Below, one piece after another: positions 12,781 to 18,501 of a stretch of 64,000 bases of DNA (the stretch's first letter is position 1; the number at the start of each line of letters is the position of its first letter). This stretch comes from an uncultured Bacteroidota bacterium (GTDB lineage: Bacteria; Bacteroidota; Bacteroidia; B-17B0; Aurantibacillaceae). The position numbers and the translations under genes were made by a program. Under the pieces are notes generated by a model, which worked only from the letters and a program-made list of their open reading frames with translations, had not been told where the DNA came from and searched no databases. The stretch is taken from the NCBI GenBank assembly GCA_937873155.1, contig CALMVZ010000027.1:186001-250000 (forward strand), in the 5' to 3' direction.

Positions 12781-14988
12781 ATGAAAAGAATTTACCTTTT
12801 CTTATTCACTATCCTGATCACATCCACCTACAGGTTATCTTCCCAAAGTGTTAATGTACCCTATCAATTTTACCTTGATGCGAATAATAATTGTACTTAT
12901 GATGCGGGCGATCAATTGCTTTATAATCTTCCCGGCGCCCTTATAATGAATTACCAGGATGTTTCATCGAGTATTCAATGGGGCAATAGTGGCCCTGTTA
13001 CGTGTATTTCACCTCTGACAATTAATAATCCGATGCTTCCACCGTCGAATACGGCAACCTTTACAGGTTTTTCTAATAGTACTTATTCTGTAAATACATC
13101 ATGCAGCGCTTATACTAATTTGTCATATACTGCAACAAACTATTTGCCAATACAGAGTATTAACGCGCAAAGTAATCCAACCTTATCTACCAACCATACG
13201 AATTATTATTTTAACACAAACACTGTTCCTGTCTGCAGTAATCTTAACGACTCCCTCAATATTTATTTCGGTTATAGTAACTTATATGCCTGTGGAGGTT
13301 TGACTACGTCCAGAACTTATAGTTTTTTTATAGATAACGTTTTATTAGACATGGCTGTATCGACCGGATCCGCTGCTTATAATTTTGTAAATGGTTCGGC
13401 ATCTAAATGTTCGGTCTCGGAATCTTATTCTAATAGTAATACTACTTTTTGGATGAGAGTCGCCTTGCCAACGGGTTTAACTTTAGGAAATCATCTCTTT
13501 GAAATTAAATCCACACCATTATATACATCACCCGCCTCTGTTGTCAATTACAGTTGTAATCTTAATTTGCAGCCATGTATTTCCGTTTCCGGTAAATTAT
13601 ACGAAGATTGTGATAATAACTGCGTAAAAAATACGGGAGATGGAAATTTATACGGAGGAGCTTTAGTGAAAGTATTTAATGGTATTACCAGTCATACTCT
13701 TTATCCGGATGGGGCAGGAAATTACTCGGGCCTCATACCTTCTCCCGGCCCTCAGTATTCCATAACTTCTATACCATCGGCTTCCGGATTTACACCTTGT
13801 CCGGCTGCAACGGCAACTACAGCACTCACAAGCTCTATGGTTACTAATCTTGATTTTGGATACAAAACAAACACCAGTTACGGAGATGTTTCAACGTATA
13901 ATGCCATAATTCCGGGCGGAATTTTTCCAAGCCAATCAAAAGTGGTTTCATCCGGGTGGATCAATCAAGCTTTTTATTATACTCCTTGCACATCTACTTT
14001 TGTAACGAATCCCGGAAAATTTAAAATAGTACTTGATAAAAATCTGACTTATTTAAATCCTACAGGTCCGACACCAACGCCAAACGCAGTAATAACAGGA
14101 CCTTCCGGGGATACATTGGTTTGGAACGTTTCGGATTTTAATGGTAGTGTAAGTTATCAATATTATACTGTATTGGCACAATTAGCCTCCTCGGTTACCA
14201 TAGGTTCAATTTTTACAAATTACACTTTTGTAAATCCACAATATGATAATTTTATGAGTAATAATTCCTCAGTGTTTAGCTGGACTGTTGGATTACCATA
14301 TGATCCAAATAATAAATTGTGTTATGCTTCCGGAATACAGCCTAACGGAGACATTCCATTAGGAACCACGGATCTTTATTACACAATTAATTTTCAAAAT
14401 ATAGGTACGGCAGCTGCCACTAACGTAAAAACTATCGATACATTAGACACCAATTTAGACTGGGCCACTTTGCAAACATTGAGCAGCAGTTTCCCGGTAC
14501 AAACACAAGTTGATAATACTTCGGGCCAGGTTATTTTTTATTTTGCCAATATCAATTTACCGGATTCAAACACCAACGAGCCGGGCAGTCATGGTTTTGT
14601 CAATTACAAGATCAAATTAAAGCCGGGTGTTCCCGTAAATACAGTTATAAAAAACCGCGCGCATAATTATTTTGATTTCCAGGCTGGAATTCCAACCAAT
14701 CAGACTCAAAACAAATTGGTGAACATTACAGGGATAACTGAAATGGAAAAAGTAAATTCTGTTTTTGTAGCGCCGAATCCTGTTTCAGATAAGGTAACTA
14801 TTTCTTCAAGGGAAATTATTCAATTTGTTTCTGTATTCAATAATCTCGGACAAATTGTTTTAAAACAAGAAGTAAATGCTCTTCAGTCACAATTAGATTT
14901 GAGTCAGTTACCAAGTTCGGTTTATTTTATAAACATTCAGTTAAAACAAGGAAGTGGCATTACAAAGAAAATAAGTAAGACGAATTAA
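12781..14988 (+). CDS. Secreted protein with T9SS type A sorting domain
   Basis: 735 residues with a signal peptide (1-21, ending SSQS). Residues ~280-365 resemble SdrD-B/Cna-B-like modules (GKLYEDCDNNCVKNTGDG, then LDFGYK). Residues ~500-660 resemble the DUF11-like conserved-repeat domain found in secreted Bacteroidota proteins (Y-T-I-N-F-Q-N-I-G-T-A-A-A-x-N-V, L-D-W-A-T-L). The last ~75 residues form a type A T9SS sorting domain: V-A-P-N-P-V-S-D-K-V-T-I, then V-F-N-N-L-G-Q, then L-P-S-S-V-Y-F-I. The protein should be exported by Sec, then the T9SS, and anchored or released at the surface. No catalytic motif is visible, so adhesion is only a guess. Confidence 0.82.
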   Translation: MKRIYLFLFTILITSTYRLSSQSVNVPYQFYLDANNNCTYDAGDQLLYNLPGALIMNYQDVSSSIQWGNSGPVTCISPLTINNPMLPPSNTATFTGFSNSTYSVNTSCSAYTNLSYTATNYLPIQSINAQSNPTLSTNHTNYYFNTNTVPVCSNLNDSLNIYFGYSNLYACGGLTTSRTYSFFIDNVLLDMAVSTGSAAYNFVNGSASKCSVSESYSNSNTTFWMRVALPTGLTLGNHLFEIKSTPLYTSPASVVNYSCNLNLQPCISVSGKLYEDCDNNCVKNTGDGNLYGGALVKVFNGITSHTLYPDGAGNYSGLIPSPGPQYSITSIPSASGFTPCPAATATTALTSSMVTNLDFGYKTNTSYGDVSTYNAIIPGGIFPSQSKVVSSGWINQAFYYTPCTSTFVTNPGKFKIVLDKNLTYLNPTGPTPTPNAVITGPSGDTLVWNVSDFNGSVSYQYYTVLAQLASSVTIGSIFTNYTFVNPQYDNFMSNNSSVFSWTVGLPYDPNNKLCYASGIQPNGDIPLGTTDLYYTINFQNIGTAAATNVKTIDTLDTNLDWATLQTLSSSFPVQTQVDNTSGQVIFYFANINLPDSNTNEPGSHGFVNYKIKLKPGVPVNTVIKNRAHNYFDFQAGIPTNQTQNKLVNITGITEMEKVNSVFVAPNPVSDKVTISSREIIQFVSVFNNLGQIVLKQEVNALQSQLDLSQLPSSVYFINIQLKQGSGITKKISKTN

Positions 14989-14995
14989 ATGGTTT

Positions 14996-15075
14996 TTAGC
15001 CGCGGATTTCGCTGATTTACACAGATAAGAACAATTGCAAAAAATCTGTGGGGAATCCGTGAAATCTGCGGCTAA
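14996..15075. repeat. Imperfect palindromic intergenic repeat
   Basis: Left arm 14996-15026 and right arm 15044-15075 are near-perfect inverted copies (TTAGCCGC-G/A-GATTTC ... CACAGAT) around a 17-base AT-rich loop. The sequence type (TTAGCCGCGGATTTCGC) is, from memory, a dispersed noncoding repeat in many bacterial genomes. It lies between a type A T9SS gene and the Tat-signal PLP enzyme gene. A TACCTTTA box (15081-15088), similar to a Bacteroidota -7 element, follows it directly. Confidence 0.75.
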
Positions 15076-15104: not shown

Positions 15105-16412
15105 ATGGATCGTCGCGATTTTTTTCTTAAGTCAGTAGCAGGAACAGCAGGCTTAACTTTTCTTTCATCTATCGATAAAGTTTATGCCGCTGAATTAGAG
15201 AACCAGGTTAACCGTGTTAATGGTTTAAGCCCGGAGGCAGCAGCCGTAGATGAAGATTTCTGGGGTTGGGTGCGTGAGAGTTATACTGTTTCCCCGAATA
15301 TCATCAATTTAAATAATGGTGGAGTTAGTCCGCAACCCAAAGTTGTTCAGGATGCGCATATCCGTTACTACCAATACTGTAATGAAGCACCTTCGTATTA
15401 TATGTGGCGTATTCTGGATGCCGGCCGTGAAGGATTAAGAGATAAGTTAGCTGATATCTGCGGCGTCGATGCAGAAGAGATCGCTATCAACCGTAATGCA
15501 ACTGAAGGATTGAACACGGTTATTTTCGGTTTGAATTTAAAAGCCGGAGATGAAGTGGTGTTGAGCAAATACGATTACCCGAACATGATGAACGCCTGGA
15601 AACAGCGCGAAAAACGTGACGGCATCAAATTAGTTTGGATCGATATTCCTCAACCGCTGGAAGATGATAAAGCTTACGTGAAATTATACCAGGATGCGAT
15701 GACATCTAAAACTAAGATCGTTCACATCACACACCAGATCAACTGGAGCGGAAATATTGTTCCTTGTAAATTAATTGCAGATATGGCGCATTCGAAAGGT
15801 GCTGAAGTAATTGTTGATGCCGCACATTCATTCGGACAATTTGATTTTAAATTCAGGGATACGGGAGCTGATTATTTAGCCACGGCCTTACATAAATGGT
15901 TATGTGCTCCATTTGGAAGTGGGCTTATGTACGTTAAAAAAGAAAAAATTAAAAATGTTTGGGCTTTATTATCGAGTTCAGAACCCGACGGAACTGATAT
16001 CCGCAAATTTGAAACATTGGGTACGCGATCATTTGCTTCTGAAATGGCCATTGGTGCCGCTGTTGATTTTCATAATGTAATAGGAGCAAAGCGAAAAGAA
16101 GAACGTTTACGCTATTTAAAGAATTACTGGTATGATAAAATAAAAACATTGCCTAAAGTTGTACAAGCAACTTCATTCAAACCACAGTATTCCTGTGCGA
16201 TCGCTCATGTAGGATTTGAAGGATGGAAAGGCGGGGATATTGAAAATAGGTTATGGGATAAACATAAGATACACACTTCAACTTTCATTTACGAAAAATT
16301 GAATGGTGTGCGTATCACTCCAAATATTTATACCAGTACGAAGGATCTCGATACACTTATCAAAGGTTTGACAGAGATCTCAAAAATGGATCCTCCAACT
16401 GCTTCAAAATAA
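15105..16412 (+). CDS. Tat-signal aminotransferase class V, isopenicillin N epimerase-like
   Basis: 435 residues. The N-terminus is a twin-arginine signal: DRRDFFLKS (2-10), then a weakly hydrophobic stretch ending VYAAE (~30), so the folded, cofactor-loaded enzyme is probably exported to the periplasm. The rest is a fold-type I PLP enzyme of the class V (cysteine desulfurase/isopenicillin N epimerase) group: N-N-G-G-V-S near 70, R-N-A-T-E-G at 130-135, D238 in VDAAHS and the Schiff-base lysine K264 in ALHKWL. There is no obvious desulfurase cysteine loop near the C-terminus, so epimerase, lyase or transaminase chemistry is more likely. Six bases later an exported RidA follows, which fits a joint periplasmic role. 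The substrate is unknown. Confidence 0.85.
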   Translation: MDRRDFFLKSVAGTAGLTFLSSIDKVYAAELENQVNRVNGLSPEAAAVDEDFWGWVRESYTVSPNIINLNNGGVSPQPKVVQDAHIRYYQYCNEAPSYYMWRILDAGREGLRDKLADICGVDAEEIAINRNATEGLNTVIFGLNLKAGDEVVLSKYDYPNMMNAWKQREKRDGIKLVWIDIPQPLEDDKAYVKLYQDAMTSKTKIVHITHQINWSGNIVPCKLIADMAHSKGAEVIVDAAHSFGQFDFKFRDTGADYLATALHKWLCAPFGSGLMYVKKEKIKNVWALLSSSEPDGTDIRKFETLGTRSFASEMAIGAAVDFHNVIGAKRKEERLRYLKNYWYDKIKTLPKVVQATSFKPQYSCAIAHVGFEGWKGGDIENRLWDKHKIHTSTFIYEKLNGVRITPNIYTSTKDLDTLIKGLTEISKMDPPTASK

Positions 16413-16418
16413 TTCCGC

Positions 16419-16871
16419 ATGAAAAAAACAGTATTTCTTTTTATTTCTGTAGCACTTGTAATTATTGGTATTGTTTCCTTCCAGGAAAAAGCACCTGAAC
16501 GTGTTGTTATCCTAACCGATAAGGCACCGAGGCCAATTGGTCCGTATAGCCAGGCAATAAAAGTTGGGAACACTTTGTATGTAGCGGGACAAGTGGGGGC
16601 TAACCTTGAGGGAAAGATCGATACTGCCTCTGTTGAGAATGAAGTTAAGCAAGCAATGAATAACGTAAAAGCAATTGTTGAAGCTGCAGGGATGAATATG
16701 CAGCAAGTTGTGAAATCGACCTTATATGTTAAGGATCTGAAACATTTTTCTAAGATCAATAAGATCTACGCCACTTATTTTCCTAATAATCCTCCTGCAA
16801 GGGAAACAGTGCAAATTGCCGGCTTACCGAAAGACGCTAATTTCGAGGTTTCTGTAATTGCCGTTAAGTAA
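16419..16871 (+). CDS. Exported RidA-family (YjgF/UK114) protein
   Basis: 150 residues: an N-terminal hydrophobic segment (about 3-21) followed by a complete RidA domain (~28-150). Motifs are P-R-P-I-G-P-Y-S-Q-A-I, L-Y-V-A-G-Q-V-G, K-S-T-L-Y-V-K-D and near the end P-P-A-R-E-T-V-Q. The Arg in PARET is the residue that binds the carboxylate of enamine/imine substrates in active RidA proteins. RidA hydrolyses reactive enamines released by PLP enzymes and is normally cytoplasmic. Here a signal peptide or anchor places it outside the inner membrane. It is separated by only six bases from the Tat-signal PLP enzyme, so it probably cleans up that enzyme's products. The pairing is inferred, not proven. 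Confidence 0.85.
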   Translation: MKKTVFLFISVALVIIGIVSFQEKAPERVVILTDKAPRPIGPYSQAIKVGNTLYVAGQVGANLEGKIDTASVENEVKQAMNNVKAIVEAAGMNMQQVVKSTLYVKDLKHFSKINKIYATYFPNNPPARETVQIAGLPKDANFEVSVIAVK

Positions 16872-16925: not shown

Positions 16926-17489
16926 ATGGGGGACGCCCGCAATTATACCGATCCCAATCTTGCAGTCATTGAGCGTTGCAGGAATGGCGACAGAACAGCT
17001 TTCCGGGAATTATACAACCTGTATGCGAAAGCTATGTTCAATATTTCGCTGAGGATCTTAAATAACAGTGATGAAGCTGAAGAAGTATTGCAGGATTCAT
17101 TCTTAAAAGTATTCTCCAAAATTGATTCCTATGATAAAACATATGCGTTTGGTGCATGGTTAAAACGTATTGTGATCAATGGATCGCTCGATGTATTAAA
17201 AAAGAGGAAAGTAAATTTTGTTTCTCTTGATGAAGCTCAGTATTGTCATGAAGAAGATATAGATGAAGACGATGCTTTATGTGGAGTTGAGATATTAAAA
17301 AAATGCATTGCTGAATTGCCGGATGGATTTCGTGCAGTACTGACATTATTTGTTTTTGAGGAATACTCTCATAAAGAAATAGCGAAAGAGCTGGGAATTA
17401 GCGAAGGAACTTCGAAATCACAATATAACCGTGCCAAAAAGAAATTAATTGAGTTAGTTAAACAAAATACTGTTAGTCATGAGCGATAA
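16926..17489 (+). CDS. ECF RNA polymerase sigma factor
   Basis: 187 residues. Region 2 (about 18-90) has F-R-E-L-Y-N-L-Y-A-K-A-M-F, then D-E-A-E-E-V-L-Q-D-S-F-L-K-V-F and the -10-binding A-F-G-A-W-L-K-R-I. Region 4 (about 125-180) has L-P-D-G-F-R-A-V-L-T-L-F-V-F-E-E-Y-S-H-K-E-I-A with the helix-turn-helix L-G-I-S-E-G-T-S-K-S-Q-Y-N-R-A. There is no region 3, as in all ECF factors. The end overlaps the next gene, a membrane protein likely to be its anti-sigma factor, by 11 bases. The target promoters cannot be read from the sequence. Confidence 0.92.
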   Translation: MGDARNYTDPNLAVIERCRNGDRTAFRELYNLYAKAMFNISLRILNNSDEAEEVLQDSFLKVFSKIDSYDKTYAFGAWLKRIVINGSLDVLKKRKVNFVSLDEAQYCHEEDIDEDDALCGVEILKKCIAELPDGFRAVLTLFVFEEYSHKEIAKELGISEGTSKSQYNRAKKKLIELVKQNTVSHER

Positions 17490-18501
17490 ATTGCGATCAT
17501 ATATCAAAGAGAATAAGGAGAAGTTTGATAGTGCTGAACCTTCTAAGGATCTATGGAAAACAATCGACTCTAAACTTGAGTTGAGTGTTCCGGTTTCAAA
17601 AAGTAAATGGACCTATATGAAATATTTTGGTTTAGGAGTGTGCGTTATTGTTATAACTGTTTATTTTATCTCGCAGAACCTAAATAATTCCTCTTCAAAG
17701 GCACTTTCTCAAAATTTAAAGGACTCAGCACTGAATAGTTCAGGTGTATGGGTTAAAACGAATCAAAATGACGGTAGCGTAAATACAAATGATAATTCCG
17801 TTTCAAGTTCCGGCAATAATAAAGTAGGAACAGATAATTTTACAGATAAAAACGCTGAGAAAGAACAGAACTCTTTGATCCGGAACGATGAAAACATTAA
17901 AAAAGACTCTGTGGTAACTGATGTAGACGAGAATATTTCAAGCGGGCAGAAGGTGGAAATTGATCCGGTTCCCGTTAAAGAAGAAAATACAGCCATGTCA
18001 AACCTGGTGAAGAATAAAAGCAAAAAAATAATTGCACCTGAAGCGCCTTCAGAAATGAATACTTTTAATGCAACAATTTATGATTGCTCCTCTATTTGTG
18101 AAGTTATACAAGCATACAGATTTCCGGGAAAAGTCAGTATGAATGGTGAAAGGAATTACCAGGGTCATAGGATATTGGAAACAGTTCCTTGCAGCAAGTT
18201 GGAAAATGCAGGAAATGTAAAAGCTGTTTGGGTCAAAGGGAAGGTCAGCAAAAAATTAAGTCTATCTGTTACACAAGGCCTGAAGAGTATAACTTTAGTG
18301 AAAAGTGACGGAAGTAAAGTTCCTCCCGTGGCTCTTTCACATTATTACAAAGGATTAGGCGTGATATCGGATTATACCGGTAAACATTTTGAAATGACCT
18401 TTAAAGATAATATGGAGTTGATCTTATTTTTTAAAGACGTGAATGAGGGCGATAAAGTGATGATCGATGGGAAGATCGAAGCTGTTGTAAATACTAAATA
18501 A
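17479..18501 (+). CDS. Probable membrane-anchored anti-sigma factor
   Basis: 340 residues, overlapping the ECF sigma gene by 11 bases, so the two are translationally coupled. A short cytoplasmic N-terminal part (1-47, with DLWKTIDSKL resembling the sigma-binding helix of such proteins) precedes one membrane segment (about 48-65, FGLGVCVIVITVYFIS). A low-complexity Ser/Asn/Lys linker follows (~66-190). The periplasmic domain (~190-340) has three cysteines (C-S-S-I-C, P-C-S-K) and beta-rich sequence I do not recognise. It probably senses an envelope signal and holds the sigma factor; this rests on position and topology, not on a named domain. The stop overlaps the convergent ABC transporter gene by 8 bases. 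Confidence 0.7.
   Translation: MSDKLRSYIKENKEKFDSAEPSKDLWKTIDSKLELSVPVSKSKWTYMKYFGLGVCVIVITVYFISQNLNNSSSKALSQNLKDSALNSSGVWVKTNQNDGSVNTNDNSVSSSGNNKVGTDNFTDKNAEKEQNSLIRNDENIKKDSVVTDVDENISSGQKVEIDPVPVKEENTAMSNLVKNKSKKIIAPEAPSEMNTFNATIYDCSSICEVIQAYRFPGKVSMNGERNYQGHRILETVPCSKLENAGNVKAVWVKGKVSKKLSLSVTQGLKSITLVKSDGSKVPPVALSHYYKGLGVISDYTGKHFEMTFKDNMELILFFKDVNEGDKVMIDGKIEAVVNTK

Follow-up and report, generated by a model that had tools for sequence, protein, structure and literature searches.

A class V enzyme dependent on pyridoxal phosphate (PLP), with a Tat-type signal, is encoded directly ahead of a RidA with an N-terminal hydrophobic segment in a stretch of 64,000 nucleotides from an uncultured bacterium of the Bacteroidota (hereafter the window). 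The pair is kept in several families, which suggests that reactive by-products of enzymes are cleaned up outside the cytoplasm. Judged from the predicted N-termini, export of both proteins is well supported, and we infer their location, the reaction of the enzyme, and the action of RidA on its product.

Gene Pair in the Window

As shown in Table 1, the pair consists of two open reading frames, whose products begin with MDRRDFFLKSVAGTAGLTFLSSIDKVYAAEL... (PLP enzyme) and MKKTVFLFISVALVIIGIVSFQEK... (RidA). The sequence-only reading of this DNA had placed the RidA frame six bases after the PLP gene, and this agrees with the ends of the two frames, since the stop of the PLP gene lies at 16412 and the RidA frame opens on the same strand at 16419.

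The gene upstream of the pair (window 12781-14988) encodes a protein in which family profiles recognized a T9SS sorting domain and DUF7619, and a gene similar to it also precedes the PLP gene at locus L072. An inverted repeat lies between this gene and the PLP gene (window 14996-15075), with 22-nt arms that are 86% complementary and 36 nt apart, and one diverged partial copy of it was found elsewhere in the genome. Downstream of the pair (window 16926-18501), an ECF sigma factor is encoded, as is a 340-aa protein that matched no family; from its position and a hydrophobic segment, the latter is possibly a membrane anti-sigma factor.

Table 1. Coordinates of the gene pair and its functional elements in the window.
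Feature	Position	Strand	Basis
Class V (fold-type I) PLP enzyme, 435 aa	15105..16412	+	ORF, Pfam, alignment, fold model
Tat-like signal region, residues 1-28	15105..15188	+	motif conservation, low pLDDT at residues 1-22
Schiff-base lysine K264 (LHKWL)	15894..15896	+	invariant in 40 sequences
R403 (GVRITPN), expected substrate carboxylate-binding Arg	16311..16313	+	invariant; SufS alignment
RidA with N-terminal hydrophobic signal/anchor, 150 aa	16419..16871	+	ORF, Pfam, NCBIfam
RidA export/anchor segment, residues 1-25	16419..16493	+	best 13-residue mean hydropathy 3.2
RidA substrate-binding Arg R128 (PARET)	16800..16802	+	invariant in 23 aligned RidAs

Signal, Active Site, and Fold of the PLP Enzyme

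A class V PLP enzyme with R-R-D-F-F at residues 3-7 had been read from the letters, and the open reading frame together with the Pfam profile Aminotran_5 (E 3.4e-40, 138.6 bits against 21.5) bore this out. The protein starts with MDRRDFFLKS, which is followed by a hydrophobic stretch, and V-Y-A/A near residue 28 is a possible cleavage site. R3 and F6 were invariant in 37 A-type relatives, defined as those at or above about 43% identity to the window enzyme, and residue 4 was R in 32, K in 3, and M and H in one each. TatC is encoded in the same genome (G000:C26:298492) and was found in 36 of the 37 genomes checked. The PLP enzyme thus carries a twin-arginine motif and its genome encodes a Tat translocase, the two sequence marks of a Tat substrate. 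Loss of Tat did not serve as a control: TatC is nearly universal, and the paired PLP enzyme of L124 has R-M, yet its genome (G010) keeps TatC.

In an alignment of 40 relatives, K264, D238, H210, and R403 were invariant. R403 was invariant in both the A-type and the B-type enzymes, the latter being of the kind of a KR-type paralogue in the same genome that is about 40% identical to the window enzyme, and E303 and R308 were particular to the A-type. SufS-type cysteine desulfurases were the best sequence-profile matches of the window enzyme. Unlike them, it carries a Tat-type signal and lacks the catalytic-loop Cys, and no suf genes adjoin the pair. No Cys occurs at residues 385-403 of the window protein, the positions of this loop are occupied by T, V, S, A, or P in its relatives, and a cysteine desulfurase of the SufS/IscS kind was rejected.

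The predicted structure of the enzyme had a mean pLDDT of 90.6 and was confident from about residue 30, with low values at residues 1-22. The nearest folds were PvdN (Z 46.5), the L-cysteine/cystine C-S lyase C-DES (Z 44.1), and SufS-type desulfurases (about 43). PvdN of Pseudomonas is a class V PLP enzyme that is exported to the periplasm by the Tat pathway, and we know of no RidA partner for it. On the basis of motif and model, PvdN (NF051467; PDB 5i90/5hh9) shares with the window enzyme a Tat-type signal and the class V fold, and it was the closest solved structure (1.9 Å over 374 residues). It differs by its context of pyoverdine tailoring and by an identity of only about 20%, and orthology was ruled out despite the closest fold, as the window enzyme scored 111.3 bits against the NF051467 cut-off of 650. 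Short PDB queries against the active-site residues of PvdN gave a weak alignment of the C-terminal part only. C-DES (PDB 1elq, 1n31) is of the same fold class and the second best structural match, at about 21% identity. Its reaction goes through aminoacrylate, and no export signal is known to us for this enzyme.

The Window RidA

RidA is viewed as a cytosolic guardian against the by-products of PLP enzymes. The window RidA was confirmed as a complete domain, as had been claimed, by Pfam Ribonuc_L-PSP/RidA (E 2.6e-36) and by TIGR00004 (Rid family hydrolase; 144.5 bits, above the cut-off of 106.25), which places it with the RidA/YjgF/UK114 archetype. The substrate-binding Arg of the PARET motif, reported earlier to be intact, was invariant among the paired RidAs together with Y43 and E143; the active-site roles given to these Arg, Tyr, and Glu residues are those established for E. 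coli RidA.

The window RidA differs from the archetype by its export or anchor segment (the protein begins MKKTVFLFISVALVIIGIVSF), and the hydropathy of residues 1-25 substantiates the hydrophobic N-terminus first seen in the letters. There was no clear A-x-A cleavage site in this segment. There was also no internal ATG, GTG, or TTG between residue 2 and the start of the domain, so that internal initiation could not give the window RidA a cytosolic form.

Conservation of the Pair Among Relatives

Scanning genome contigs turned up 80 loci with a close relative of the PLP gene. At 20 of them (21 with the window) RidA was directly downstream, starting within about 30 bases of the end of the PLP gene. 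At L072, two genes on the opposite strand separate the PLP gene from a RidA 3.9 kb downstream, and at L083 a RidA fragment, possibly frameshifted, is visible. Every intact paired RidA, including that of L072, has an N-terminal hydrophobic segment. RidA was the commonest neighbour of the PLP gene and the only one common to clearly different genomic contexts, and the pairing therefore exceeds chance. Since no neighbour but RidA was shared across the contexts of the PLP gene, the gene neighbourhood gave no clue to the substrate; the amino-acid permease and SDR genes seen repeatedly upstream were essentially confined to one clade.

In the tree of the PLP enzymes, the paired loci fall into two supported groups and scattered exceptions. 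Adjacency was also found by class-wide searches in families f37 and f43, as well as in f14, where the PLP gene is frameshifted; the pair of family f19 came from the search for relatives. Adjacency in relatives had been proposed as a check on the pairing, and it was kept in several families and hence not absent in all relatives.

Signal-Bearing RidA and the Exported Enzyme in Bacteroidia

The association was then counted in 143 Bacteroidia genomes of 50 families, many of the genomes being MAGs; the sample represents the part of the class with the RidA most like that of the window. A signal-bearing archetypal RidA, in some cases lipoprotein-like, was present in 42 of the 143 genomes and in 20 families, with signals called by eye and by a hydropathy rule, not blind, and with some RidAs scored as signal-less on the length of the open frame alone. 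An A- or B-type enzyme, scored as present at E <= 1e-80, was found in 38 of the 42 genomes with a signal-bearing RidA versus 29 of the 101 without, and the same association was seen by family (19 of 20 versus 12 of 30, p 7e-5). Seven within-family contrasts were for this association and none against (p 0.016). Pairs on well-supported branches of the RidA tree gave a mean of 3.7 in the same and 0.7 in the opposite direction, which was not significant at low power. The signal-bearing RidA co-occurs with the exported class V enzyme even when the two are unlinked.

Three of the four genomes with a signal-bearing RidA and no A- or B-type enzyme at the threshold have a more distant relative of the enzyme (31-35% identity). 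The fourth, G049, has the RidA (L193) and no such PLP gene, and in its congener G090 an intact signal-bearing RidA is preceded by an A-type gene with a frameshift (L285, G090:C1:2672500-2675200). The PLP partner has apparently decayed in these two genomes, the possible alternative being an error of assembly. The cleanest single case for RidA export going with the Tat enzyme is family f16, in which four genomes have both the Tat enzyme and the RidA signal and two have neither; one genome without the Tat enzyme keeps an in-frame remnant of the RidA signal (YYYFSKHPI).

Signal-bearing and lipoprotein-like RidAs that are unlinked to a PLP gene occur in many families. An A-type enzyme was found in 50 genomes of the sample, and in 24 of them no signal-bearing RidA was seen; the partnership of exported enzyme and RidA is therefore facultative. 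The claim of a periplasmic PLP unit with its own damage-control enzyme is partly supported, by the export-type N-termini of both proteins, the adjacency, and the co-occurrence, with the correction that the partnership is facultative.

A Second Cluster and Internal Start Codons

The genome of the window has a second cluster (C11:543431-546270; L041:7432-10271, G000) that consists of a KR-type class V paralogue, a second class V gene without a signal, and a RidA without a signal. The ends of these genes adjoin or overlap, and the same gene order was found in G002, G004, G006, and G007. An NlpC/P60-like gene, recognized by eye, lies just upstream of the cluster. A further cytosolic archetypal RidA is encoded in this genome (L010/L192).

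Where the signal-bearing RidA is the single archetypal RidA of the genome, 25 of 25 genomes had an internal Met at the canonical cytosolic start or close to it. Of 17 genomes that encode a second archetypal RidA, 15 have no such Met in the copy with the signal. This contrast, noticed and counted in one data set, gave a p of 1.4e-9 by genome and, when families were counted and the mixed ones (f37 and f44) scored as lacking the Met, of 1.3e-5. The RidA extension of family f39, shared by three species, looks coding, since its hydrophobic sequence is kept with mostly third-position changes; the third-position bias was not clear in two other groups tested. Candidates for a dual start, which have a signal peptide or lipobox ahead of an intact Met near the cytosolic start and one archetypal RidA per genome, are L055, L062, L208, L211, L214, L215, L219, L221-L223, L250, L256, L260, L262, L263, L274, L281, L283, L286, L287, and L291.

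The simplest reading of these sequences would be that single-copy genomes make an exported and a cytosolic RidA from one gene, and that genomes like that of the window use separate genes. Alternatively, signals may have been added before old start codons, the Met merely persisting. Within the Bacteroidota, HBP35 of Porphyromonas gingivalis is a precedent for the dual start, as its exported and cytosolic forms arise via internal start codons (PMC2907840); it differs in that the protein is unrelated to RidA and the window RidA itself has no internal start. We tentatively propose, with confidence somewhat short of even, that Bacteroidia defend against reactive intermediates in two compartments. 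Where a class V enzyme is exported, RidA would tend to be exported too, either through a dedicated paralogue, as in the window, or, with one archetypal RidA, through a two-start gene giving exported (often lipoprotein) and cytosolic forms.

Proposed Mechanism and Alternatives

The explanation we favour, at about even odds, is that a periplasmic PLP enzyme releases an enamine or imine that is hydrolysed by the exported RidA, the pair being an enzyme of the cell envelope and a partner for damage control. The class V enzyme would fold and load PLP in the cytoplasm and then be exported by Tat as for PvdN, and RidA would leave the cytoplasm on its own by means of a Sec-type signal or anchor. The periplasmic substrate would be amino-acid-like and bound through its carboxylate by the invariant R403. 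The reaction is most likely a beta-elimination or a related one that frees an enamine or imine of the 2-aminoacrylate type; beta-elimination would yield the classic RidA substrate and is for that reason the most economical guess. RidA would hydrolyse this enamine or imine before it attacks PLP enzymes. Outside the cytoplasm PLP is not readily replaced, so that inactivation of the exported holoenzyme would mean its loss, and selection would favour a RidA located in the compartment of the enzyme. The conserved pairing, the co-occurrence, the separate signal-less RidAs of the genome, the intact catalytic residues of RidA, and the fold of the enzyme speak for this explanation. Against it stand the non-significant result on the RidA tree, the 24 A-type genomes in which no signal-bearing RidA was seen, the lack of a clear A-x-A site in the window RidA, and R-M in place of R-R in the paired enzyme of L124.

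The enzyme could instead be a periplasmic tailoring enzyme like PvdN that oxidatively decarboxylates an amino-acid residue within a larger molecule. RidA would then hydrolyse the imine or help to form the product, and its target would not be 2-aminoacrylate. The closest solved structure is PvdN, itself periplasmic; a review ascribes decarboxylation and oxygenation to it (PMC7497351); and an oxidative decarboxylation of this type fits the modelled fold equally well. The NCBIfam score (111 bits versus 650), the identity of about 20%, and the absence of a recurrent biosynthetic cluster around the genes argue against such tailoring, which we regard as rather doubtful.

A specific tie between the two proteins would be dispensable if the exported RidA were a general protectant of the envelope, acting on enamines whatever their source or serving as a chaperone, so that adjacency is historical. 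The unlinked signal-bearing RidAs and the A-type genomes that lack one would fit this; the co-occurrence with A- or B-type enzymes, the immediate adjacency in several families and contexts, and the absence of the RidA signal from the f16 genomes without the enzyme do not, and we think this explanation unlikely. An ordinary cytoplasmic PLP-RidA operon, with one or both N-terminal segments not being export signals, has in its favour the second cluster of the same genome, whose RidA has no signal. It is very improbable in view of the strong hydrophobic segments in all intact paired RidAs, the lipoboxes in several unlinked ones, the third-position-biased substitutions in the f39 extension, the lack of an internal start in the window RidA, and the R-[RK]-x-F motif retained by nearly all relatives of the PLP enzyme.

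Relation to Described Systems and Significance

A survey of the Rid family (PMC4433059) makes no mention of signal peptides or the periplasm, and nothing relevant was found in the open-access papers searched on an exported or periplasmic RidA, on an export pairing of PLP enzyme and RidA, or on Tat-exported class V enzymes in Bacteroidota. Tat-exported class V enzymes and the biochemistry of RidA are already known. The claim that the arrangement is undescribed thus holds within these open-access papers for the exported RidA and the pairing, and does not extend to the Tat-exported class V enzyme, for which PvdN is an example.

If the proposed partnership is true, damage by PLP enzymes arises and is managed in the envelope, where a lost cofactor is hard to replace. 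It also offers a chemical clue for a widespread enzyme family of the Bacteroidota, in that these enzymes may release an enamine or imine, and the dual-start pattern makes a testable prediction, that one gene would serve two compartments.
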